DNA of 64,000 nucleotides, from the NCBI GenBank assembly GCA_020523885.1, contig JAJAPY010000013.1, forward strand, positions 1 through 64,000. The letters run 5' to 3'. The position numbers were made by a program, and so were the translations under genes. Every line of letters begins with the position of its first letter. Positions within the stretch are counted from its first letter, which is position 1. Shown here one piece after another: positions 32,277-56,810 of this stretch. Below the pieces are notes generated by a model, which ran no database searches, had not been told where the DNA came from, and saw only the letters and a list, made by a program, of their open reading frames with translations. Source of the DNA: Candidatus Liberimonas magnetica. GTDB taxonomy: Bacteria; Elusimicrobiota; Endomicrobiia; Endomicrobiales; JAFGIL01.

Positions 32277-32297
32277 CTTTTAGGACAATCCTATTAA
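32277..32297 (+). promoter_or_regulatory. TTAGGACA motif 1, upstream of the winged-helix gene
   Basis: CTTTTAGGACAATCCTATTAA ends about 24 bases before ATG 32321. Same motif as at 37237, 37576, 34571 (minus) and 37196 (minus). Confidence 0.6.
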
Positions 32298-32320: not shown

Positions 32321-32896
32321 ATGCGAAAAGAGGTGACGGCAAATTATGAGTGGGTGGCTGAAAGTGCTAGGCGAAAAGCCATTCTATTGAGTTTTAACAG
32401 GCCAATGATTAAATCTGAGATTGAGGAAAAGGTTTCTTCTTTTATTGGTATCAAAGGCAGGGCAAGCGTTAAGCTGAAAGAATTTATTGACAGAGGACTG
32501 ATAGTATTCTCAAATCAGGCAGTAAGAGAAGGCAGGATTTACAGCTTATCCGAAACCGGCAGGGGAATTGCCCTTGAGGTTGCGGAATCAGGCAATTTTC
32601 ATTGGCAGTATTCCGAGCCGGTGCTTGACTGGCGATTATATGGCAGTATTGTTTGCGGTAGGCGAAAGAGAAAAATATTGCATGATATAGTAGAGAAAGG
32701 GCGCATTACTACGATTTTAAAACACTATCATATAAAAGCTGAACTCTTGCGGGATACCCCCCGTAGTTATAGATACAAAATTCTTAATGACTTCCTGAAA
32801 TCAGGGGTTGTGCAGAAGATTATTGAAAAAGGAGTGCCTGTATATGTGCCGACTGAGAAGGCCAGGGAGTTATATTCACTTATTTTTGCGAATTAG
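32321..32896 (+). CDS. Winged-helix DNA-binding protein
   Basis: A 191-residue basic protein with a wHTH: RKAILLSFNRPMIKSEIEEK, GIKGRASVKLKEFIDRGLIV and a wing at GRIYSLSETGRGIALEV (about 15-85). A second wHTH-like repeat may be present in the C-terminal half (RKRKILHDIVEKGRITTILK and YKILNDFLKSGVVQKIIEKG), so it may be a tandem wHTH. Archaeal-style regulators look like this. It is preceded by the TTAGGACA motif, so it may be autoregulated. It converges on the tyrosine recombinase at 32893 with a 4-base overlap. Confidence 0.7.
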   Translation: MRKEVTANYEWVAESARRKAILLSFNRPMIKSEIEEKVSSFIGIKGRASVKLKEFIDRGLIVFSNQAVREGRIYSLSETGRGIALEVAESGNFHWQYSEPVLDWRLYGSIVCGRRKRKILHDIVEKGRITTILKHYHIKAELLRDTPRSYRYKILNDFLKSGVVQKIIEKGVPVYVPTEKARELYSLIFAN

Positions 32897-34122
32897 CTTT
32901 GATTCTTCTTTTTTATATTTATCTTGGTTGATTCTATTTTTTCGTTCATTTTTGCCCATTTCTTTTTTAGCTCTATTCCTTTAGCAGGATCGTTCATTCG
33001 CACCCCTTGTTTATCTAGTTCTATTAACATAGTCTTAATAAAATCTAAAGAAATGTCCTGAAAATCCTTTAGGTTATTGAACTGGTCAGTTAGGCTATTT
33101 ACTTTTTCTTCCAATTCAGTCTTTTTATCAGGGGGCAGTTCTTCAGTCTGGTAGATTTGGTTTTTTAAAATCGCTTTCAAGGTTTCTTCATCTAAGTGTT
33201 CATAGGCCTGGCTCATGTCCTTAGAGTGACCCATGAAGTCAGCAGCCGTGTCCTTGCTTATCTTACCTTCACGTGCCAGCTTGTATAACATCGTGGCTCT
33301 GCTATGTCTCAGGAGATAGTTCCACATATTACGTCCAACCTTATCAGACAGCCCACGCATCCACAAGCTAATAGTAGATTTATCGATTGGTTTGTTTATA
33401 TCCCCCTTACTATGGAAAACATAAACACCAATAGTTCCAAGCCTTTCTTGTTCTTGTTTTAACAGATGCAAATAGCCAGTAGCTTTCTTTACAAACACAG
33501 GCCGAGACCTTTTTGTCTTTGTGGCATAAATATTAACCTCTGAAATGTCTCCATCTATGCTCAGCTTTAAGTCTGCCCACTTCAACAGCCTTGTCTCAAT
33601 GGTCCTTAGTCCAGCTTCAAATTGAACCAAGAAGAATGTCTTATAGAATAGCCTACTTTCATGTTTTAGAATATTCTCAATATCTATTTCGGTAAGCATA
33701 TCTGCGGAAGACATCTTATTTTTATTAGCAGGTTTTGAGATTAGCCTGATATCTTCTAAGTTATTGAATCGAGCTGACCAATCCTTAAAATGCCATTTAA
33801 GAAAATTTCTTAAGTTTATCTTAATGTTATTGCGCGCATAATCACCCATATAGGAATTGTTAAGCAAAACCAGGAAGTTAATAATGTCATTTAAGGTTAG
33901 TTTTGAAAAAGGCTTTTCTGTAACATATCGGATATGTAATACATAGCGCTTGATGTCTGCCAAAGTCTCGGCAGTCATAGAACCATACTTGGCTCTAGCC
34001 GTTCTATATTTTAAATACTGGCTAATAATATCCTGCTCTTTCTTAGGTAGGGAATTATAAAAGAATTCAATCGGCGAGCCCCCTTGTCTGCCTTTCTCGA
34101 ACTTCGGATAATTATTTAGCAT
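32893..34122 (-). CDS. Tyrosine recombinase/integrase (full length)
   Basis: A 409-residue Xer/integrase-type protein. The N-terminal SAM-like binding domain is at about 30-130. The catalytic part holds EAGLRTIETRLLKWADL (Arg), a Lys in TKTKRSRPVFVKK, LLRHSRATMLY (H-x-x-R) and FMGHSKDMSQAYEHLDEE (His and Tyr). The remainder is a coiled-coil tail (PPDKKTELEEKVNSLTDQFN). The sequence style resembles integrases common in archaea and candidate phyla. It may resolve element multimers or handle internal cassettes, since the chromosomal borders fit the serine recombinase instead. Convergent with the winged-helix gene. Confidence 0.88.
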   Translation of the reverse strand: MLNNYPKFEKGRQGGSPIEFFYNSLPKKEQDIISQYLKYRTARAKYGSMTAETLADIKRYVLHIRYVTEKPFSKLTLNDIINFLVLLNNSYMGDYARNNIKINLRNFLKWHFKDWSARFNNLEDIRLISKPANKNKMSSADMLTEIDIENILKHESRLFYKTFFLVQFEAGLRTIETRLLKWADLKLSIDGDISEVNIYATKTKRSRPVFVKKATGYLHLLKQEQERLGTIGVYVFHSKGDINKPIDKSTISLWMRGLSDKVGRNMWNYLLRHSRATMLYKLAREGKISKDTAADFMGHSKDMSQAYEHLDEETLKAILKNQIYQTEELPPDKKTELEEKVNSLTDQFNNLKDFQDISLDFIKTMLIELDKQGVRMNDPAKGIELKKKWAKMNEKIESTKINIKKKNQS

Positions 34123-34366: not shown

Positions 34367-34540
34367 TTAGTAATAACCCGAATGTTTGTCATACCCGCCG
34401 GTATAGTAGTCCTTGTGGGATTCTACTATGTGGTTGAAAGCAAGCTCTATGTCTTTCAATGTATTTCTTATAGACTCAACATTGCTGCTCATTCGTAGTA
34501 TTGCCTTTTCGCATTTCTTTTCAAGATTTTCGTTTGCCAT
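34367..34540 (-). CDS. 57-residue helical protein
   Basis: A short frame from ATG 34538-34540 on the minus strand: MANENLEKKCEKAILRMSSN and on to a Tyr/Gly-rich tail DYYTGGYDKHSGYY. It is preceded, about 30 bases upstream, by the TTAGGACA motif on the same strand (34571-34590), as are other backbone genes, which supports its being real. Function unknown. The 225 bp between it and 34141 hold no gene I can support. Confidence 0.5.
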   Translation of the reverse strand: MANENLEKKCEKAILRMSSNVESIRNTLKDIELAFNHIVESHKDYYTGGYDKHSGYY

Positions 34541-34608: not shown

Positions 34609-36642
34609 CTACGCATAATTGCCGACGCTGGTGGCTATCACTTTTTTTGTGTTAATTATGCCTGCCTTTTTAAGCTCTTCCTTGATTTTGAGTTCTGTGG
34701 CTTCGTTTGTGGCGACAGAAATTACGCAGGTGCAGTTGTGTTTCAGGCACTTCATTACATTGTAAACTGCTCTCCTGGGTTCTGTCTCAATTTCTATGGC
34801 AATATTCTCATTCTGTTTTTCTATGATTATATCGGCATTTCCATTTACGGGTTCTTCAATCTTAACCTTGTATCCTTGTTTTGAATAGTATTCGGCTATT
34901 TTGTTTTTCCAGTAGCGATGTTCTATGCCTTCGTTTGAGAATTTAGCATCATATCCTGTTTCATTCAGGTGTGCTATTCCCTTGTTTGTGAGCTGTAATG
35001 CCTTAATCATTCCTTTTGCAGTTGTTATCTTTCCTGATTCTACCAGACCCTTTTCAATCAGCCTATCCTTTGTCTTGTTTCCTTCCCTTACATTCAATTC
35101 AAGCCGGTTGTATCTTTCAATTATGTTAGAAGTCGGCATTTCATACACATCTGCCAGGAATTTATTGTAAACAAGGGGTATTTCAATTTTTTGCGAAACA
35201 GGGGGTATAGTATCATGACATGGTGAAATACCCTCAAATTCGCTGAAATTCTTGTTTACAGGGCTGGTAGAGGCGAAATGCCCCTTCATTCTTTCTTTAA
35301 TTATTTCATCTGTTATTACCCCTTTTTGGATAGGAACCAATGGGAATTTTACATGGCAGGGATCAATCCTGTTTTTTATTTTTAGTATTCCTTCGCCGAC
35401 TTTCAGCTTATCAAGATAGATTTCCTGCCCGTTTTCAAGGAACAATGATTTCTTTGAAGCGTAAATGTCATCGCCGTGCTGCAAGCCTAAAGTAATCTGT
35501 GTGTGGCAGTTGCCGAGAATGTATATAGGCAGAAGGCTTGTATGCTGTGTTATGCTTACCAATCCTTCCCCGAATCCTCTTATCTCTCGATATACGTTTT
35601 CCAATGAACTTAAAGATTCCATTTCTATTTTGTTTTTAGGGAAAAGATTATGAATTTCCTCAATGAACAGGACGTGCCTTAATTTATCGCTTTCTCTTTG
35701 CGAGAGCCTGTATAAGTGGATCCATCTCAAAATTATTTCAGTAAAGAAAGTTCTCAAGGGTTTTGGCATTTCCTGGTCAAGTTCTATTATGACGGGTTTT
35801 TCAAGTAACTCTTCAAGCTTTATAGGATGCCTTACATTAAAGCATACTGCATGAGGCCCGAAGGTGAAGCTCTTTAATACCCTTGCTGTGGACTGCTTCC
35901 AGAGCAGCTCTCTTGCGAAAGCATTTGTCTTTTCAAGTTCCTTCAAGCCGTCAAAGAAGTTAGGGTATTTGTCGCCCTGTCCTATGGTAAAACCTGCTTC
36001 TTTGAATTTCTTTTCATAAATCTTCATGAAGAAGTCTGCGACTCCCATACCGGCAAGGTGCGATCTTTCAAGGGCTTCTGTTATTATTGCAAGCCATGTT
36101 TTCCAATGAACATTTGGCGGCGGCCTGAAAGGGTTCCAGTAAAAAGGCGCTGTCATTCTTCCTACTGTGAATACTTGTACATCCTTTAATTCAGGAAATT
36201 TGTCTGAAAGACTTAACAAATTACGGTAGCTTCTTTTCCAGTCAATTACTATAAAGGGGGTTTTGTTCTTTAGCAGGTTAAGGGCGAGAATCATGGCCAG
36301 ATTTGTCTTACCCTCGCCTGTTATTGAGAATATGCCTATCTGTTTTACAAAGTCCTGCTCATTTAGTCCAACCGGACAGACTTCTTTTCCGTTATACAAG
36401 ACGTTCCCGATGGGGAATGTTCCCTTTGCAGATTCTTTGTCAGGCGGAACAAGTAGAATGTTTTCCTTTCCAATGTCTGTTTGCAGATGCTTGAAATATA
36501 GAACCTGAAATATTTCCTCAAGCTCTTTTCTATCTTTCCAGCCACTCGTGAGGTAAGTTTTCCATAAAATGTCTGCTTTCCAGCCTAGTACGGGCTTGAG
36601 CCTCTTGCAAATCTCTTCCGGTGTGAGGTTATTGTTATTCAT
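34609..36642 (-). CDS. HerA-like ATPase fused to a winged helix and PD-(D/E)XK-like nuclease (paralogue A)
   Basis: A 677-residue protein. The P-loop is FSITGEGKTNLA at about residue 110 (Ser in place of the usual first Gly/Ala), and Walker B is HVLFIEEIHNLF at about 350. The arrangement is that of HerA/VirB4-like hexameric DNA translocases. Around residues 505-570 lies a winged helix (ERYNRLELNVREGNKTKDRL). The last 100 residues have HRYWKNKIAEYYSKQGYKVK then GNADIIIEKQNENIAIEIET, a D...E-x-E pattern typical of PD-(D/E)XK nucleases. The start overlaps the upstream gene by 8 bases (ATGNNTAA). A paralogue lies at 52918. Possible roles: DNA transfer motor or HerA-type antiphage nuclease. Confidence 0.8.
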   Translation of the reverse strand: MNNNNLTPEEICKRLKPVLGWKADILWKTYLTSGWKDRKELEEIFQVLYFKHLQTDIGKENILLVPPDKESAKGTFPIGNVLYNGKEVCPVGLNEQDFVKQIGIFSITGEGKTNLAMILALNLLKNKTPFIVIDWKRSYRNLLSLSDKFPELKDVQVFTVGRMTAPFYWNPFRPPPNVHWKTWLAIITEALERSHLAGMGVADFFMKIYEKKFKEAGFTIGQGDKYPNFFDGLKELEKTNAFARELLWKQSTARVLKSFTFGPHAVCFNVRHPIKLEELLEKPVIIELDQEMPKPLRTFFTEIILRWIHLYRLSQRESDKLRHVLFIEEIHNLFPKNKIEMESLSSLENVYREIRGFGEGLVSITQHTSLLPIYILGNCHTQITLGLQHGDDIYASKKSLFLENGQEIYLDKLKVGEGILKIKNRIDPCHVKFPLVPIQKGVITDEIIKERMKGHFASTSPVNKNFSEFEGISPCHDTIPPVSQKIEIPLVYNKFLADVYEMPTSNIIERYNRLELNVREGNKTKDRLIEKGLVESGKITTAKGMIKALQLTNKGIAHLNETGYDAKFSNEGIEHRYWKNKIAEYYSKQGYKVKIEEPVNGNADIIIEKQNENIAIEIETEPRRAVYNVMKCLKHNCTCVISVATNEATELKIKEELKKAGIINTKKVIATSVGNYA

Positions 36643-37171
36643 ACCGCACTACTCCCTCAAGGCTGTTTCCTGAAATCAGTTGTTTCTTCCTTGCGTTTGT
36701 CTTGTAATCATTCATTGCAAACATCAGGTCTTTTCTTAACTCTGCTATATCGCGCCAGCATGATATTTCCTGCTCTCTTTTATCTTTTTCAGAATCCAGT
36801 ATGCTTTTTTCGATGTCATTCCTTGCTTTGATAATTACTGGTGAGGTTGTGTCACAGAAAAGGTCTTCAAGCTGGAAGAGCCTGCTTCGCTGTCCTGATA
36901 TTGAATAATCTATTTTGTTCAGGTTATTGTATTTTATCCCTATTCTTTCCTTTATCTGCGATATGGTGTTAATGACTGAGCTTTTTGCAAAAGCTGTCTT
37001 GTCAGCAAACAATAGGTCAATTTCGTCTTTGGAATCCCTGCATGATTGCATTTCCATAAACCTATTCAATAGAGTCAGGTCTTCCTTGTCTGCATATATC
37101 GGGATAAAGCCATTATTCTTTTCCTTCTTGCAGTATTCCAAGTCCTTTATGATTTTGTATTCAAGTTTCAT
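36635..37171 (-). CDS. Partner protein of HerA paralogue A
   Basis: A 178-residue helical protein (KEDLTLLNRFMEMQSCRDSK, KARNDIEKSILDSEKDKREQ) with no recognised domain. Its stop overlaps the HerA-like start by 8 bases, so translation is coupled and a complex is likely. Minus-strand motif TTAGGACATAGCTTTTA (37196-37216) sits 25 bases before its ATG. It diverges from the histone-fold gene across a shared 108-bp control region. Confidence 0.6.
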   Translation of the reverse strand: MKLEYKIIKDLEYCKKEKNNGFIPIYADKEDLTLLNRFMEMQSCRDSKDEIDLLFADKTAFAKSSVINTISQIKERIGIKYNNLNKIDYSISGQRSRLFQLEDLFCDTTSPVIIKARNDIEKSILDSEKDKREQEISCWRDIAELRKDLMFAMNDYKTNARKKQLISGNSLEGVVRYE

Positions 37172-37195: not shown

Positions 37196-37216
37196 TTAAA
37201 AGCTATGTCCTAATTC
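37196..37216 (-). promoter_or_regulatory. TTAGGACA motif 3, minus strand
   Basis: Minus strand reads GAATTAGGACATAGCTTTTAA, upstream of the HerA operon. It lies 20 bases from the plus-strand copy at 37237, so a divergent control region carries two opposed copies. Confidence 0.6.
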
Positions 37217-37236: not shown

Positions 37237-37257
37237 CTTTTAGGACACTCCTTTTAT
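37237..37257 (+). promoter_or_regulatory. TTAGGACA motif 4, plus strand
   Basis: CTTTTAGGACACTCCTTTTAT, upstream of the histone-fold gene. The frame's earliest ATG (37256) falls inside this motif, which favours a later start at 37280. Confidence 0.6.
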
Positions 37258-37279: not shown

Positions 37280-37450
37280 ATGAAAAAGATAGTTGTAGTT
37301 GAAAGCAGGATAAGGGATTTGATTGAAGGTGTGAGCCTGTCCTCTGATTTTATCCCTGCCTTGAGTTTAAGGGTTGAAACTTTAGTCAAAGAAGCAAAAA
37401 GGAGAGCTGAATCAAATGGAAGAAAGACATTGCAATCAAAAGACCTGTAA
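37280..37450 (+). CDS. Bacterial histone-fold protein (single domain)
   Basis: A 56-residue protein from ATG 37280 (37274 also possible): MKKIVVVESRIRDLIEGVSL, then SSDFIPALSLRVETLVKEAK, and RRAESNGRKTLQSKDL. The order (V-x-S/ESRI-D, DF-x-x-AL-x-x-x-V, A-x-x-R-A-x-x-NGRKTL-x-x-x-DL) matches bacterial singlet histones such as Bd0055 of Bdellovibrio and DUF1931. Those fold as dimers and bind or bend DNA. On a mobile element it could compact or mark the element's DNA. The downstream small Cys-rich gene overlaps its 3' end. Clear family pattern; role is inference. Confidence 0.78.
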   Translation: MKKIVVVESRIRDLIEGVSLSSDFIPALSLRVETLVKEAKRRAESNGRKTLQSKDL

Positions 37451-37565
37451 ATATTGCGGAGAGAAAGTTGAGGGGCTTTTTGAGTCTGTCCGAGTATTTA
37501 GGGGTAGTGTGATTGAAACACGGACAATATGTTTTAGCTGTTATTTTCTTGAACGTTGCATATAA
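37416..37565 (+). CDS. 49-residue Cys-rich zinc-binding protein
   Basis: ATG 37416 lies after AGGAG. The peptide is MEERHCNQKTCKYCGEKVEG... to CFSCYFLERC: C-x4-C-x2-C at the front and C-x2-C at the end, consistent with one zinc ribbon. It overlaps the histone gene by 35 bases in another frame and is probably coupled to it. Confidence 0.6.
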   Translation: MEERHCNQKTCKYCGEKVEGLFESVRVFRGSVIETRTICFSCYFLERCI

Positions 37566-37575
37566 TAAATCCTGC

Positions 37576-37596
37576 CTTTTAGGACACGCCTTTTAT
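37576..37596 (+). promoter_or_regulatory. TTAGGACA motif 5, upstream of ssb
   Basis: CTTTTAGGACACGCCTTTTAT, nearly identical to the copy at 37237. The ssb start is 185 bp further on, after a hairpin. Confidence 0.6.
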
Positions 37597-37631
37597 ATTC
37601 CAATTACCTAAATATTTTAACTCATTTCAGT

Positions 37632-37674
37632 AAAAGCACGGGGTTTCATAAGCAAACCCAATGCGTGCTTTTTA
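37632..37674 (+). terminator. Hairpin in the ssb leader, terminator or attenuator
   Basis: AAAAGCAC pairs with GTGCTTTT and inside it GGGTTT pairs with AAACCC, then TTAGG. It lies between the TTAGGACA motif and ssb, so it may attenuate the transcript. Confidence 0.6.
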
Positions 37675-37780
37675 GGGCGATTTAATTCGTCGAGTATGTA
37701 ATTCTTTCGACTTATTCGGAGATATGGAAAATAAACAGGCTGTTTGTCTCAACAAAAATTGACAAAGGAGGCAAACATTT

Positions 37781-38110
37781 ATGAATAGTTTCTCGTGCAG
37801 TGGCAAGGTATCAAAAATCAGTGAGCCGATTTTCTTAAATGAAAACACAATGGCTCTGCGTTTTACGGTAATGGCGGTAAATGGGCAGGTGGATTCCCAG
37901 GGCAAACCTCGTGCTGATTACGTTCCCTGTATCCTGTTCAATCCGAGTGAGGAGCTACAGGGAGTATTTGCAGGGGATAAAACTGGTTTTGTCGTGGAGT
38001 TTTCAGGGAAAGTATCAAGCACCAACCTGCCTAATCCAAATCAAGGAGGAAAGAAAAGCTTCAGAACAGAAGTAATAGTTTACAAGAACACTCTTCTATT
38101 GAAGAGCTAA
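37781..38110 (+). CDS. ssb: Single-stranded DNA-binding protein (SSB-like OB fold)
   Basis: A 109-residue protein with the SSB-type pattern: FSCSGKVSKISEPIFL, LRFTVMAVNGQ, DYVPCILFNPSEELQGVFAG, FVVEFSGKVSSTNLPN and RTEVIVYKNTLLLKS. It is shorter than chromosomal SSB and lacks the acidic C-terminal tail that recruits partners, as in some plasmid or phage versions. Strong ribosome-binding site (AAAGGAGG). Presumably protects single-stranded DNA during replication or transfer of the element. A terminator follows at 38168. Confidence 0.75.
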   Translation: MNSFSCSGKVSKISEPIFLNENTMALRFTVMAVNGQVDSQGKPRADYVPCILFNPSEELQGVFAGDKTGFVVEFSGKVSSTNLPNPNQGGKKSFRTEVIVYKNTLLLKS

Positions 38111-38167
38111 ATCAAAGAGCAAACAGCCTGTTTGCAGTAGTTTGTCAGCAAAGCAGTAATAATCGGG

Positions 38168-38202
38168 GCCTGCCGGTCTAGTAATGCCGGCAGGTCTTTT
38201 TT
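38168..38202 (+). terminator. Terminator after ssb
   Basis: CCTGCCGG (38169-38176) pairs perfectly with CCGGCAGG (38187-38194), followed by TCTTTTTT. Confidence 0.9.
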
Positions 38203-38220
38203 CTATTGGAGGCAGTAATT

Positions 38221-38754
38221 ATGAACGTATTTGAGTATGAAGGGAAAAAGTGCATTTCAATTAATGGCAAAGATTATTTTTTAATCAGGGGATATGCAAA
38301 GCATTATGACAAATACATTTTTGTGCAGGTTGCAGGGAATACTCCTTTGCATAAAGAGGATATGCCGACAAAAGATTGGGAAATTGTCAGCAGTAAAGCA
38401 GATGATAAAAAGTCATGGATTGCTTATGTCAAAAGCTATTTCAGCTATGACACCGGAAAGGCGACTTCCGTTTTAGCGTTTTTAGGTGCAACAACGGCAG
38501 GCTCATATTATGTTGCGCTTAATTTTATCGCAAAGAAGTTCGGCATAGACCTGCCTGCCGATAAAATACACAAACTTGCTGATAAGTATTCAAAAGGAAA
38601 GAGCGAACATTTCTGCATAAGCGAGTTTGCGGATAACGGGAATACCGGGCAGAGCATGGTTTTAGTTGAGTTTAACGCAGGATTTGACGAAGAAATGGCT
38701 TTTGAAATTCTTAACTTCTCAAAAAAAGGAGATGATAAAAATGAGATTCATTAA
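38221..38754 (+). CDS. Protein of unknown function, backbone
   Basis: A 177-residue protein from ATG 38221, with TTGGAGG before it; the 15-base extension upstream contains the ribosome-binding site itself. Soluble, mixed alpha/beta (EGKKCISINGKDYFLIRGYA, GKATSVLAFLGATTAGSYYV). Unrecognised. The 3' end overlaps the next small gene by 14 bases. Confidence 0.6.
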   Translation: MNVFEYEGKKCISINGKDYFLIRGYAKHYDKYIFVQVAGNTPLHKEDMPTKDWEIVSSKADDKKSWIAYVKSYFSYDTGKATSVLAFLGATTAGSYYVALNFIAKKFGIDLPADKIHKLADKYSKGKSEHFCISEFADNGNTGQSMVLVEFNAGFDEEMAFEILNFSKKGDDKNEIH

Positions 38755-38908
38755 GAAAAAGAGCGTTATGGAATGTGTGAAAACAATTTCGGGAAGAAAG
38801 AGAATCATATCAAGAAGATTTTATCTATGGCTTGACGCAAGAGTCCAAACGGCAATAGAGGACGTCGTAAAAAGAACGGGCGGTAACAAACGAATAGAAG
38901 GATTTTAG
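38741..38908 (+). CDS. 55-residue basic protein, possibly a second histone-fold protein
   Basis: ATG 38741, preceded by AAGGAG, overlaps the preceding stop. The sequence MRFIKKKSVMECVKTISGRK, RIISRRFYLWLDARVQTAIE, DVVKRTGGNKRIEGF can be aligned with the histone-fold order of the 37280 product: a basic start, then I-S-x-x-F-x-x-x-L-D-x-x-V, then A/V-x-R-x-x-x-N-x-R-x. The canonical NGRKTL and DL are only partly kept (GGNKRI). Basic charge fits DNA binding. The histone assignment is tentative. Confidence 0.5.
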   Translation: MRFIKKKSVMECVKTISGRKRIISRRFYLWLDARVQTAIEDVVKRTGGNKRIEGF

Positions 38909-38921
38909 GAGGTAATCGTAT

Positions 38922-39164
38922 ATGAACGGCGAAGAACGCAACAACATTATTACTCATCTTGAAAACTGCGATACGTTTGACGGTTTTGTGATTAAAGATG
39001 AAAAGTGCAGGCAGTATTTTGTGTGTGCCATAACTTTGTTATCAAGGCAGAATGGCAATACATTCCTGCAAAAACTGAGAAGTTTAGGTTGTAAATCCTA
39101 CAAGCGAAAAATAGAGAATGAGGAGGTGGACAACGATGCAGACAGCAAAACAGATGGACAATGA
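38922..39164 (+). CDS. 80-residue protein of unknown function
   Basis: ATG 38922 after GGAGG. Contains two Cys in a helical region (EKCRQYFVCAITLLSRQ) and an acidic tail (ENEEVDNDADSKTDG). It overlaps the methylase-SNF2 start by 29 bases, so it is probably part of that operon. No family recognised. Confidence 0.55.
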   Translation: MNGEERNNIITHLENCDTFDGFVIKDEKCRQYFVCAITLLSRQNGNTFLQKLRSLGCKSYKRKIENEEVDNDADSKTDGQ

Positions 39165-52535: not shown

Positions 52536-52925
52536 ATGAATAAAGATACTGTTTTTTATGGTTCTGGTGAATCTGACAATGGGGATGATAATAAGCCTGT
52601 AAGGAAAGTTATGAAAAGGGTTGCCGTAAAGAGGAAAGACGGGAAAGAGCTTGTTTTGCATGAGGTGATTGTTACCGCATATACCGGGCCTGACAATACG
52701 CCTGACTCTGGGCAGGTCAGTCATTTCGGCACTCTGGATGATAACAGCGTCTATGATGAATCTCTGCCGGTGGTTTCATGCAATAACGGGCATATTGTGC
52801 AGGGATTAATTACCTGTCCGAGATGCAGAAAGACAATGTGCAAAACGCCTGGCTGTCATGGGACTAATTGCGTCGGGATTGAATGCCCTTTTTGTGGGAA
52901 AACTTTTGAGTGCAAATATGGATAA
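52536..52925 (+). CDS. Zinc-binding protein, paralogue 2
   Basis: A 129-residue protein, AAGGAGG before ATG 52536. Front: KPVRKVMKRVAVKRKDGKEL. C-terminal cysteines CNNGHIVQGLITCPRCRKTM, CKTPGCHGTNC, CPFCGKTFEC give two or three zinc sites. Its stop overlaps the HerA paralogue start by 8 bases (ATGGATAA), the same layout as the 36635/36642 pair. The pair is probably translated together, and the zinc protein may be a subunit of the HerA complex. Confidence 0.7.
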   Translation: MNKDTVFYGSGESDNGDDNKPVRKVMKRVAVKRKDGKELVLHEVIVTAYTGPDNTPDSGQVSHFGTLDDNSVYDESLPVVSCNNGHIVQGLITCPRCRKTMCKTPGCHGTNCVGIECPFCGKTFECKYG

Positions 52926-54879
52926 TTTTGACTTCAAGCAAAGAATTCTTCTTAATACTGTAATGAACAGACTCAAGGAAAAGAAAGTGCTTACAGGAGA
53001 AGCTCAAGCGCTCTTCCTTAATGCGTCCTTATCTCCGAGTCCTGAGACTTTTACTGCCTTTTTAGGCTGTGCCGGGGAGTTAATACAGAATGCAGGGAAA
53101 GTATCGCCTTTTTACAAGCCGGATATTAAGGATAATATTCAGGGAGTAATGAAATTCGGTTTTAGTGAAAACGTCATTCCTGTAGGGATAGACATAGGGC
53201 AGTTTCATACCGCAGTTTTCGGCCAGACGCGATCCGGCAAAAGCGTGATGCTTTTTATGATGTTGGCGCAAGCGATGAAGCAAAATAATTCTGTATTCTG
53301 GGTATTTGCAAGAGCCAATGATATAAGAAGACTGCTTCATGTCAGCAATGATATTGTTTTCGTTACTTTTGACGGGCAGATCAGATACAATCCGATTCCA
53401 AAGGATGAGAACCTTGCCCGCTTTACCGACCCTTTTATACAGGCTACAACCCTGTTTGACGGGACAGACAATTATCTTGCCGAGCAGATTTACAGGCTAA
53501 AGATTGAAAAGCCGGAGCCATCATTGTCGGATTTGTACAAGCATATAATGTTTCAGAAGCATTTGACTAACTCACGGCAGGATCAGTACAAGCAGAGTTC
53601 CCTTAACAGGCTGGGAGGCATATTGAGAAGCAAGCTCGGGAATTTCCTGAAAGGCGGGAAGGATTGCTTTGAACAGCTTATAAATCATAATGTAGTCTTT
53701 GAAATGAATGAGTTAAGATCATGGGAACAGGTGCTTGTGGTTAACCTGCTGATTCTTCATCTTTCAGACTGGAAAAGGAAGCATGCATCAGACTTGCACC
53801 ATATTATTGTGCTTGAAGATGCCTCAGCAATTTGCAACATCGCATTTGACAGGAATCCGAGAAAGCCAATCCTTGCGGACAGTTTTGACACATTGGCAAA
53901 AGATGGTTTTCAGTTTATTGTACTTTCCCAGTCGCCAGGTCAAGTGATGCATTTCCTCCACGCAGAAACCGACTGTAAGATTTGCCTTAAACTTTCGAAC
54001 ATGGATGACGCAATTCTTATGGCACATAAGCTCGGCGTGGAAAAAGAGCATTGGGAAAAATTCTTTTGGCTTCCAGCAAGAACAGGGTTTGTCAGCATGA
54101 AGGGGCTTCCGGCATTTCTTTTCAGGATTCCTGAAATACCTCTGATTGATTATTCATGCTTTACTGATGATTGGCTGAAACAGAATAATGCACGGCTTCT
54201 AGGTATAACAGAAGATGAAAACGTTGAAATTGAGGATGAAGAAGCAGAAGATGTTAAGGAAGAACTGAAAAAAGATGAGAGAAAGTTGCTGGAAGCAATA
54301 CATGTGAAGCAGTTTGTTGCTTCTATGGGGATGCTCTCAGAAATAACTGGTTTTGATGTAAGCAAAATCAGTCGTATGTCTAATGTTCTTGCAGAAAGAG
54401 GGTACATTTCAATTTGTGACATTCGAATCGGGAAAAGGCCCTTTCGGTATCCTGTACTTTTGGTGCGGGGATATCAAGCGCTTGGAATTGAGGAAGCTGA
54501 AAAGCAGGAATGTAAGGGCGGGCCAGATCACCGTATTTGGATATTTTTATTTGAGTCAAAGTTTAAGAAAAAGGGCATTAGCGCAGAGCATGAAAGGTTT
54601 TTAGGAGAAGGTCATAGTTCAGACCTTGTTTTGAAGTTATCGGATTATTCCGTAGGGGTTGAGGTTGAGCTTTCTTCCGCTAACACAAAAAACAATCTGG
54701 AAAAGGGATTGAGGCTTGGCTTAAACTACATTATTTTCGGGGCAAAGGACAGGAAAACCTTGCGCGAAATTCAGGCAATTATTAACGATTCATCTGAAGA
54801 GAATAAAAAGAAATGTTTTGCTTATTCGTTGACTGAGATTTACGAAGCAGAAAATATTATGGATTTGATTAAGCTATGA
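52918..54879 (+). CDS. HerA-like ATPase fused to a winged helix and PD-(D/E)XK-like nuclease (paralogue B)
   Basis: A 653-residue protein; ATG 52918 is chosen because it overlaps the zinc-protein stop (the longer frame starts inside that gene). Walker A is VFGQTRSGKSVMLFM at about residue 100, and Walker B is HIIVLEDASAICN at about 300. Next an acidic linker (ENVEIEDEEAEDVKEELKKD), then a winged helix (VASMGMLSEITGFDVSKISR), then the nuclease-like end: HRIWIFLFESKFKKKGIS, SSDLVLKLSDYSVGVEVELS (D...E-x-E). Same three-part order as the 34609 product, so they are paralogues. A motor-nuclease fusion could process double-stranded element DNA or defend against phage. Operon of seven genes with small spacers. 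Confidence 0.8.
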   Translation: MDNFDFKQRILLNTVMNRLKEKKVLTGEAQALFLNASLSPSPETFTAFLGCAGELIQNAGKVSPFYKPDIKDNIQGVMKFGFSENVIPVGIDIGQFHTAVFGQTRSGKSVMLFMMLAQAMKQNNSVFWVFARANDIRRLLHVSNDIVFVTFDGQIRYNPIPKDENLARFTDPFIQATTLFDGTDNYLAEQIYRLKIEKPEPSLSDLYKHIMFQKHLTNSRQDQYKQSSLNRLGGILRSKLGNFLKGGKDCFEQLINHNVVFEMNELRSWEQVLVVNLLILHLSDWKRKHASDLHHIIVLEDASAICNIAFDRNPRKPILADSFDTLAKDGFQFIVLSQSPGQVMHFLHAETDCKICLKLSNMDDAILMAHKLGVEKEHWEKFFWLPARTGFVSMKGLPAFLFRIPEIPLIDYSCFTDDWLKQNNARLLGITEDENVEIEDEEAEDVKEELKKDERKLLEAIHVKQFVASMGMLSEITGFDVSKISRMSNVLAERGYISICDIRIGKRPFRYPVLLVRGYQALGIEEAEKQECKGGPDHRIWIFLFESKFKKKGISAEHERFLGEGHSSDLVLKLSDYSVGVEVELSSANTKNNLEKGLRLGLNYIIFGAKDRKTLREIQAIINDSSEENKKKCFAYSLTEIYEAENIMDLIKL

Positions 54880-55130: not shown

Positions 55131-56810
55131 ATGCTTGAACCTAATCCGAAACAGAAAGTAAAAGTTGCACTTTATGCGCGTGTTTCAACTGAAGAACAGA
55201 CAAATAACTATTCTCTGGATGCACAGAAGGACTTGCTTATTAAATATGCCAAAGAGAACAACTTTGTTATTACAGGGGAATACATAGACGGCGGTTATTC
55301 AGGAACGAGCGATGACAGGCCGGAATTCCAAAAGATGATGGAAGATGCGAGAGGGGGTAAATTCAATTTGGTGCTGTTTTACAAGTATGATAGGCTTTTT
55401 AGGAACAATAGGCATTTGCTGAATACAGTTGAACAGCTTTCTCAATATGGTGTTGCAATAAAATCAATCACAGAGCCTTTTGACACAAGCAACCCTATGG
55501 GCAAGTGCATGGTCTCAATTTTGGGTAGTATGGCAGAACTAGAGAGGAATAATTTTTTGGAACGCTCGAAGCAAGGCAAATTAAGAAGGTACAGGGAAGG
55601 TTATTATGCCGGGAGCGGAGTTTTTGGCTATGATTATGATAAAGAGACAGATATTCTCACAATAAACACTAATGAGGCAGAAATTGTTAAGCATATTTTC
55701 AGTGAATATATTCAGCCGGAGTCTTCCCTATTAAAGGTTGCAAGAAATTTGAGAAAGCAGGGTTTGAAGACAAAGAAAGGGCTTGAGTTTCAGTCTCATT
55801 GTATTCATGGTATTCTTTTAAATTCAATGTACACAGGAAAATGGTATGCGAATAGATTAGGCCCTAAAAACAGCCTGAAGCCAAGGGATCTATGGATTGA
55901 AGTCAAAGTGCCTGCAATAGTTTCAGAGGAAGAATATAATCTTGCACATAAGCTTCTAAAGGAAAGGCGCATTTATTCCAAAAGAAACGTGAAGTATGAT
56001 TATCTCTTACAAGGGCTAATTAAATGTGGTGCTTGTGGCTCTAAAATATCAGGCACATCAGACAGCTCATTGCCAACAATGATTAATGGCAGGCAGTACG
56101 GGCCTTATTTCAAGCTTTATTACAGGTGTAATCATTACTCAAAAAATCTCTTTGAAAAAAAAATTAGCTGTGATTTGAGATGGATTCAGTCTGAATTGAT
56201 TGACGGTGCTGTCTGGAATAAGGCTGACATCATTCTAAATAATCCTGAAATTATAAGAAAAGCCGTAGAACGGGAAAGAGAATCAATGCCTGAAAGGGAT
56301 GTTTTGCAGAAATCTTTGAAGAAGAATGAGGATGCTCTAAAAAGACTTTGCAGGGAAGAAGAAAGGATAATTGAGGCTTACAGGCGCAATATTATCAGTA
56401 TTGAGCAATTAGACCAGCAGATTAGCGATATAAGGCTGAAGAAGGAGGCTTATAGCCATGAAATTGAAAGAATTGGCCTTCTGCTTGAGGATAAGAAGGA
56501 GAATATTGAAAGTGCCATTGATTGTGTCAGCCAGATAAACAAAGGCATTGGAAAGCTCAATCCTGATATAAAGAAACGGGTCTTGAGGCTTCTTGACACA
56601 AGTGTTGTGGTGAATACCAACGGAAAGGCAAATCTTACCTTTAGGATTCCGCTATCCCTTCCAGAGTCTTTTCCCCCTATTATGTCGGCAGAACATGCAT
56701 CACACCCGCATTTACGAATTTGTTCTTCATTTCATAGCTCAGGTTTTCATCACTCCCGACAAGCATTGGTATCAATAAAGATGCTTCCAAGGCGGGGAAT
56801 TTATCCTTGA
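55131..56810 (+). CDS. Large serine recombinase; tail switched by integration
   Basis: A 559-residue integrase. The resolvase-type catalytic domain has VALYARVSTEEQTNNYSLDA, nucleophile Ser19, and KYDRLFRNN. Recombinase domain about 165-300. A zinc ribbon follows (LIKCGACGSKI...YRCNHYSK...CD, about 300-345), then a coiled coil (EEERIIEAYRRNIISIEQLD, about 400-480). AAAGGAGGTG precedes ATG 55131. The frame crosses the element border: codons 522-559 come from antisense comEC. Codon 521 (GAA 56691-56693) is the last element codon. In the predicted circle the frame continues into the RHH frame at 9273, for 652 residues in total. It probably catalyses integration at the GT/AC core inside AAC in comEC. 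Confidence 0.95.
   Translation: MLEPNPKQKVKVALYARVSTEEQTNNYSLDAQKDLLIKYAKENNFVITGEYIDGGYSGTSDDRPEFQKMMEDARGGKFNLVLFYKYDRLFRNNRHLLNTVEQLSQYGVAIKSITEPFDTSNPMGKCMVSILGSMAELERNNFLERSKQGKLRRYREGYYAGSGVFGYDYDKETDILTINTNEAEIVKHIFSEYIQPESSLLKVARNLRKQGLKTKKGLEFQSHCIHGILLNSMYTGKWYANRLGPKNSLKPRDLWIEVKVPAIVSEEEYNLAHKLLKERRIYSKRNVKYDYLLQGLIKCGACGSKISGTSDSSLPTMINGRQYGPYFKLYYRCNHYSKNLFEKKISCDLRWIQSELIDGAVWNKADIILNNPEIIRKAVERERESMPERDVLQKSLKKNEDALKRLCREEERIIEAYRRNIISIEQLDQQISDIRLKKEAYSHEIERIGLLLEDKKENIESAIDCVSQINKGIGKLNPDIKKRVLRLLDTSVVVNTNGKANLTFRIPLSLPESFPPIMSAEHASHPHLRICSSFHSSGFHHSRQALVSIKMLPRRGIYP

Follow-up and report, generated by a model that had tools for sequence, protein, structure and literature searches.

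The histones known in bacteria are nucleoid proteins of the chromosome. Two small genes on a putative integrative element in the genome of Candidatus Liberimonas magnetica raise the question of whether a histone could have its function for a mobile element and not for the cell. The initial annotation of the window, i.e. the whole 64,000-nt stretch of DNA analysed here, had proposed two histone-fold-like proteins, and both ORFs are present where it placed them (37280-37450, 56 aa, referred to as H1; 38741-38908, 55 aa, referred to as H2). The translation of H1 is MKKIVVVESRIRDLIEGVSLSSDFIPALSLRVETLVKEAKRRAESNGRKTLQSKDL, with the C-terminal end NGRKTLQSKDL, and that of H2 is MRFIKKKSVMECVKTISGRKRIISRRFYLWLDARVQTAIEDVVKRTGGNKRIEGF, with the C-terminal end GGNKRIEGF. 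In total, we favour, with a probability of roughly 0.58, the reading that H1 is an archaeal-type face-to-face (FtF) histone, a tetramer- and ring-forming alpha3 class known mainly from archaea, carried and regulated by the element, that H2 is a degenerate relative, and that both package or remodel element DNA.

The element and its relatives

The element extends from about 32.2 to 56.8 kb (roughly 24 kb; Table 1). The mobile-element setting suggested by the initial annotation is borne out by the gene content, which includes two recombinases (one tyrosine and one large serine recombinase) and two HerA-like ATPases, and by a patchy distribution: only four of 334 phylum genomes have the core of HerA and 178-aa genes, and the elements in two of these genomes (G097 and G140) combine this core with a serine recombinase. 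The suggestion that the two small genes form a pair between the HerA and SSB genes is correct for H1, but H2 lies downstream of SSB and of the 177-aa gene. No long direct repeats bounding the element were found. Insertion of the element by splitting of a ribosomal operon was considered and dropped, because rplJ is elsewhere on the same contig.

Three related elements share the HerA/178-aa core, and none of their ORFs had a convincing histone-profile score. We conclude that the histones are an accessory of the element rather than part of its core, and that elements of this type can do without them. SSB and SNF2 fusions also occur widely on mobile elements that have no histones. The SNF2-methylase had no strong relative in the phylum, and viral contigs scanned with H1, the FtF alignment, SSB, the SNF2-methylase and the HerA alignment gave no match. 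For HerA-like ATPase 1, a match to CedD, the NCBIfam model of a DNA-translocating ATPase, was obtained with an E-value of 3.5e-26, far below the cut-off of that model; therefore, a role in DNA import or exchange is possible.

Table 1. Features of the locus, with positions in the window
Feature	Position	Strand	Remarks
Perfect motif copy	32278..32296	+	24 nt before ATG at 32321 (191-aa gene)
191-aa protein, winged-helix-like by eye	32321..32896	+	Homologue in G097 element; no Pfam match
Tyrosine recombinase	32893..34122	-	Phage_integrase, E 7e-11
Motif core TTTTAGGACA	34589-34580	-	39 nt before 57-aa gene at 34540 (-)
HerA-like ATPase 1 (DUF87), 677 aa	34609..36642	-	Domain matches
178-aa partner of HerA-like ATPase 1	36635..37171	-	Conserved in three related elements
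Weaker motif copy, 3 mismatches	37197..37215	-	25 nt before ATG of 178-aa/HerA operon, divergent to H1
Perfect motif copy	37238..37256	+	23 nt before H1 ATG
H1, 56 aa, very probable FtF-type alpha3 histone	37280..37450	+	pI 10.0, net +4; R42, N46, R48, T50, D55 and exact C-terminal length kept
49-aa CxxC/CxxC zinc-ribbon-like ORF	37416..37565	+	Overlaps H1 3' end; no Pfam family above cut-off
Perfect motif copy	37577..37595	+	Between H1 cluster and SSB; 185 nt before SSB ATG
SSB-like OB-fold protein, 109 aa	37781..38110	+	NCBIfam single-stranded DNA-binding protein model, E 1.7e-6, well below curated cut-off
Intrinsic-terminator-like hairpin	38165..38198	+	After SSB
177-aa protein, no family assigned	38221..38754	+	Directly 5' of H2
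H2, 55 aa, divergent histone-like protein	38741..38908	+	pI 11.0, net +10; without KTxxxxD/alpha3 end
80-aa ORF, no family assigned	38922..39164	+	3' of H2
N6-methyltransferase fused to SNF2 helicase (SNF2-methylase), 1161 aa	39136..42621	+
SIR2-like + TPR protein, 760 aa	44644-46926		Defence-like gene within element
HerA-like ATPase 2	52858..54879	+
Large serine recombinase	55131..56810	+	Right part of element

A motif specific to the element precedes H1

The 19-bp motif TTTTAGGACANNCCTNTTA has three mismatch-free copies in the 3.39 Mb genome, and all three are inside the element. When up to three mismatches were allowed, the window contained six matches versus 1.4 expected, and no shuffle gave six; because the motif was derived from these copies, this count only shows that they stand out. 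Most plausibly, the motif serves the element as an operator or promoter. Because it is element-specific and precedes H1, H1 looks tied to the element's own expression; the link of H2 to the motif is indirect because H2 is downstream of SSB and of the terminator-like hairpin.

H1 is without a clear ribosome site, and an alternative in-frame ATG is present at 37256. We placed the start at the ATG at 37280 because the resulting distance of 23 nt between motif and ATG is similar to the 24 and 25 nt at two other starts.

Two further features are located around the SSB gene. A strong hairpin with a subsequent T run is present at 37632-37672, between the third perfect motif copy and SSB (z = -3.5), and could be a terminator or the end of a short RNA that starts near the motif. 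Moreover, the palindrome AACAGGCTGTTTG / AAACAGCCTGTTTG is present on both sides of SSB, at about 37736-37750 and 38119-38135, possibly for autoregulation.

H1 is very probably an FtF-type histone

In phmmer searches of the PDB, H1 matched four distinct histone sequences; the best match was HTkC (9f2c, E 8.9e-5), and other matches were to Bd0055 (8fvx, 8cmp) and HLp (9qt0). In the Pfam search with H1, no model other than PF00808 was listed up to E 10, and because this match is below the family cut-off it was left out of the proof that H1 is a histone. Helices were predicted for residues 3-17 and 24-50 in the single-sequence model of H1.

The residues that define FtF histones are, in profile numbering, R48, N52, R54, T56 and D61 (PMC11390915). 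In the alignment, their counterparts in H1 are R42, N46, R48, T50 and D55, all of which are present and, together with D23, L28, A39 and A43 (H1 numbering), identical in the 14 aligned sequences. In HLp, R49, N53, R55 and D62 make up the tetramer interface and the RD clamp (PMC12701072). Moreover, the last residue of H1 is at the position at which, in the D4GZE0 model, the C-terminal carboxylate is engaged (PMC11390915). By contrast, bacterial dimer histones such as Bd0055 are without R48 and N52 (PMC11390915).

Using profiles built without H1, H1 scored 65.1 bits with archaeal-type FtF histones, 36.5 bits with bacterial FtF histones and 38.9 bits with dimer histones, while Bd0055 scored 51.5, 44.0 and 84.0 bits, respectively, with a dimer profile that includes HBb as a member. 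In a maximum-likelihood tree, H1 was outside the dimer clade (98/89) as well as outside the bacterial FtF clade (96/96), and was positioned among the archaeal-type rows, where resolution is weak and which, like the entire tree, is based on 60 columns only. Because of its FtF residues, its profile scores and its position in the tree, we conclude that H1 is not a Bd0055-type dimer histone, and its sequence identifies it with high confidence as an FtF-type histone. Thus, the initial annotation of H1 as a bacterial singlet histone of the Bd0055 type was right about the histone but not about the class, which is archaeal-type FtF by residues, profiles and tree.

Two other classes do not fit H1. A comparison with DUF1931 had also been suggested; however, no DUF1931 match was obtained up to E 10 and H1 consists of a single 56-aa fold, while DUF1931 pseudodimers have two folds per chain. 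Similarly, the C-terminal helical tetramerisation domain of phage histones is absent, as H1 and H2 end at or before the position of alpha3.

A tblastn search of plasmids with H1 gave 76 records, the best of which had 44-48% identity, and the FtF histones of haloarchaeal plasmids are 42-48% identical to H1. When this search was relaxed to E 10, all matches listed up to E 0.2 were haloarchaeal, and the bacterial plasmid records among the matches listed (E. coli, Streptomyces) had E 3 or worse. The haloarchaeal relatives are named 'DUF1931 domain-containing' in RefSeq. One relative in a named genome was found, in the archaeal MAG SI037_bin40, and no recognisable relative of H1 was detected in the phages, viral contigs and bacterial plasmids searched.

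The host has a chromosomal histone of a different class

The host chromosome encodes its own histone (G000:C3:3214-3396), which falls into the dimer clade together with the nearest family member that has been sequenced. By sequence, this histone is of the Bd0055-type dimer class and, therefore, different from H1. Further FtF histones were found in the phylum; at the four FtF loci viewed with their flanks (G319, G281, G282 and G279), they are encoded by single genes, and by eye no recombinase is nearby. At one of these loci (L083:3346-3600 (-), G319:C47), the archaeal-type FtF histone adjoins an 84-aa ORF that by eye is SWIB-domain-like, i.e. another eukaryote-like chromatin protein.

With the host's histone in mind, H1 could be a stealth or host-directed nucleoid protein that blends the element into host chromatin or tunes host genes without a special packaging role, and plasmid-borne H-NS-type proteins are the model for such a protein. 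Because the host has its own chromosomal histone, an added H1 could mix with it or compete in host chromatin and, moreover, plasmid-borne FtF histones are common in haloarchaea (PMC11390915). However, H1 and the host histone differ in class, and the promoter-proximal motif that is common to element genes fits expression at an element stage better than constant expression. We consider a stealth or host-directed function of H1 unlikely.

H2 is probably histone-derived

H2 starts inside the last codons of the preceding gene and has the Shine-Dalgarno sequence AAGGAG. A start that overlaps the end of the preceding gene is common in operons. H2 has no close relative in any collection searched and, therefore, its assignment is tentative, as it was in the initial annotation, which had proposed H2 as a second histone. 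The best PDB match of H2 among 177,635 sequences was the FtF histone HTkC (9f2c, E 0.024), and with a profile built without H1 or H2 it scored 14.9-15.8 bits. The best of the composition-preserving shuffles of H2 reached 11.8 bits (0 of 20,000 reached the H2 score), and the next-best ORF among 4,510 background ORFs, a non-histone, scored 5.5-6.4 bits, i.e. ~9 bits below H2. As for H1, the archaeal FtF profile came first (15.8 bits, versus 8.7 bits for bacterial FtF and 3.1 bits for dimer histones). In the alignment, R45, N49 and R51 of H2 correspond to R48, N52 and R54 of the FtF tetramer interface and are kept. In total, a divergent histone is plausible.

Could H1 be a real FtF histone and H2 an unrelated small basic helical DNA-binding protein that resembles a histone by chance? 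H2 is without the T and D of RxTxxxxD and without the entire one-turn alpha3 end, its identity to the nearest relatives is 20-28%, and BLASTP aligned it with H1 over 29 residues only. No credible orthologue was found in the viral contigs, genome contigs, plasmids, phages and 149 related genomes searched. Moreover, the single-sequence model of H2 is poor (pLDDT 59); its predicted helices (7-19 and 25-46) match those of H1, at low confidence. Foldseek and VIA-align gave no match with the single-sequence models of H1 and H2, which neither supports nor refutes the assignment because a monomer with two helices offers such searches too little signal. The hhalign probability of H2 with the FtF alignment, in which H1 is included, was 78%. 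However, the best match of H2 in the PDB is a histone, its profile score is far above those of background ORFs and shuffles, the residues kept are those of the FtF interface, and H1 is only 1.3 kb away. Thus, a chance likeness is rather improbable and H2 is likely to be histone-derived. We use this term rather than FtF histone because the FtF-defining feature (RxTxxxxD and alpha3 end) is missing; tentatively, H2 is probably a divergent FtF histone in which the end of the fold was lost. A frameshift was considered as the cause of the missing end and rejected, since by eye the other frames after NKR do not contain anything like KTVxxxDL; the ribosome site of the next gene directly follows the end of H2.

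A possible role in packaging of element DNA

As it has its own histone and a second, very basic protein, the element may come equipped for DNA packaging. In the favoured reading of H1 and H2 as element-borne packaging or remodelling proteins, H1 would form a dimer and then a ring-shaped tetramer by means of R42, N46, R48 and the C-terminus, and this tetramer would bind or wrap ~60 bp of DNA without sequence specificity, both by analogy with HLp and HTkC. HLp FtF tetramers wrap about 60 bp (PMC12701072). H2 keeps the residues that reach across the tetramer interface, without the C-terminal partner surface. Because this surface and the alpha3 end are lost, a homotetrameric ring of H2 is unlikely, and H2 would more likely pair with H1 or coat DNA alone. 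When the element is active, the histones would be made together with SSB, the HerA ATPases and the SNF2-methylase, and element DNA would most likely be packaged or remodelled by the histones during replication or transfer, as SSB and the ATPases act. The action of H1 and H2 on element DNA, taken by itself, is tentative, with chances slightly short of even, and its purpose is our interpretation. A more elaborate version, in which H1 forms FtF rings, H1-H2 heterodimers cap or open these rings and the SNF2-methylase remodels them as a two-part element chromatin separate from the host's dimer-histone nucleoid, is speculative and we consider it improbable.

That H1 and H2 are passenger genes acquired by chance and without a present function for the element, as their absence from the three related elements could indicate, is very unlikely, because H1 has all FtF hallmark residues despite <50% identity to its relatives and is preceded by the element-specific motif, and because a good ribosome site precedes H2, whose start overlaps the gene before it.

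Implications

Uncultured genomes are the source of most bacterial histones; hence, absence from the collections that were searched does not prove uniqueness. To our knowledge, FtF histones on extrachromosomal DNA were previously known only from haloarchaea. In the literature searched, no histones are described on bacterial integrative elements, apart from phage histones and the haloarchaeal plasmid copies (PMC11390915). We conclude that the class of H1 is known, while this member and its setting are new, and that H2 is a probable new histone variant. If H2 is confirmed as a histone, its missing alpha3 end would place it outside the five alpha3 categories of PMC11390915. Since the element has an FtF histone and its host uses another class, whether a histone can work for a mobile element instead of the cell becomes directly testable. 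Moreover, the element-borne H1 points to a possible path for histone genes from archaea to bacteria or vice versa.

Comparison with known systems

The archaeal FtF histones, i.e. HTkC of Thermococcus kodakarensis (PDB 9F2C), D4GZE0 of Haloferax volcanii and the haloarchaeal plasmid copies, are nearest to H1. They share with H1 the length, the lack of a tail, the R/N tetramer residues, RxTxxxxD and a short alpha3 ending in DL; by contrast, H1 is encoded on a bacterial integrative element and has arginines (R10, R12) in place of the alpha1 lysines, while H2 differs from them in being without the alpha3 end. The bacterial FtF histone HLp of Leptospira perolatii (PDB 9QT0-9QT2) has tetramer residues (R49, N53, R55) and an RD clamp that are kept in H1; however, HLp-type sequences form their own clade (96/96) and have a loop 1 that is two residues longer. 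The bacterial dimers Bd0055/HBb (PDB 8FVX, 8CMP) are, like H1, alpha3-type histones with an RKT motif but are without R48 and N52, the equivalents of which are both present in H1. Finally, phage histones (PMC11390915) resemble H1 and H2 in being encoded on mobile DNA, and H2 in being without RxTxxxD, but have an extra C-terminal helix for tetramerisation that neither H1 nor H2 has.
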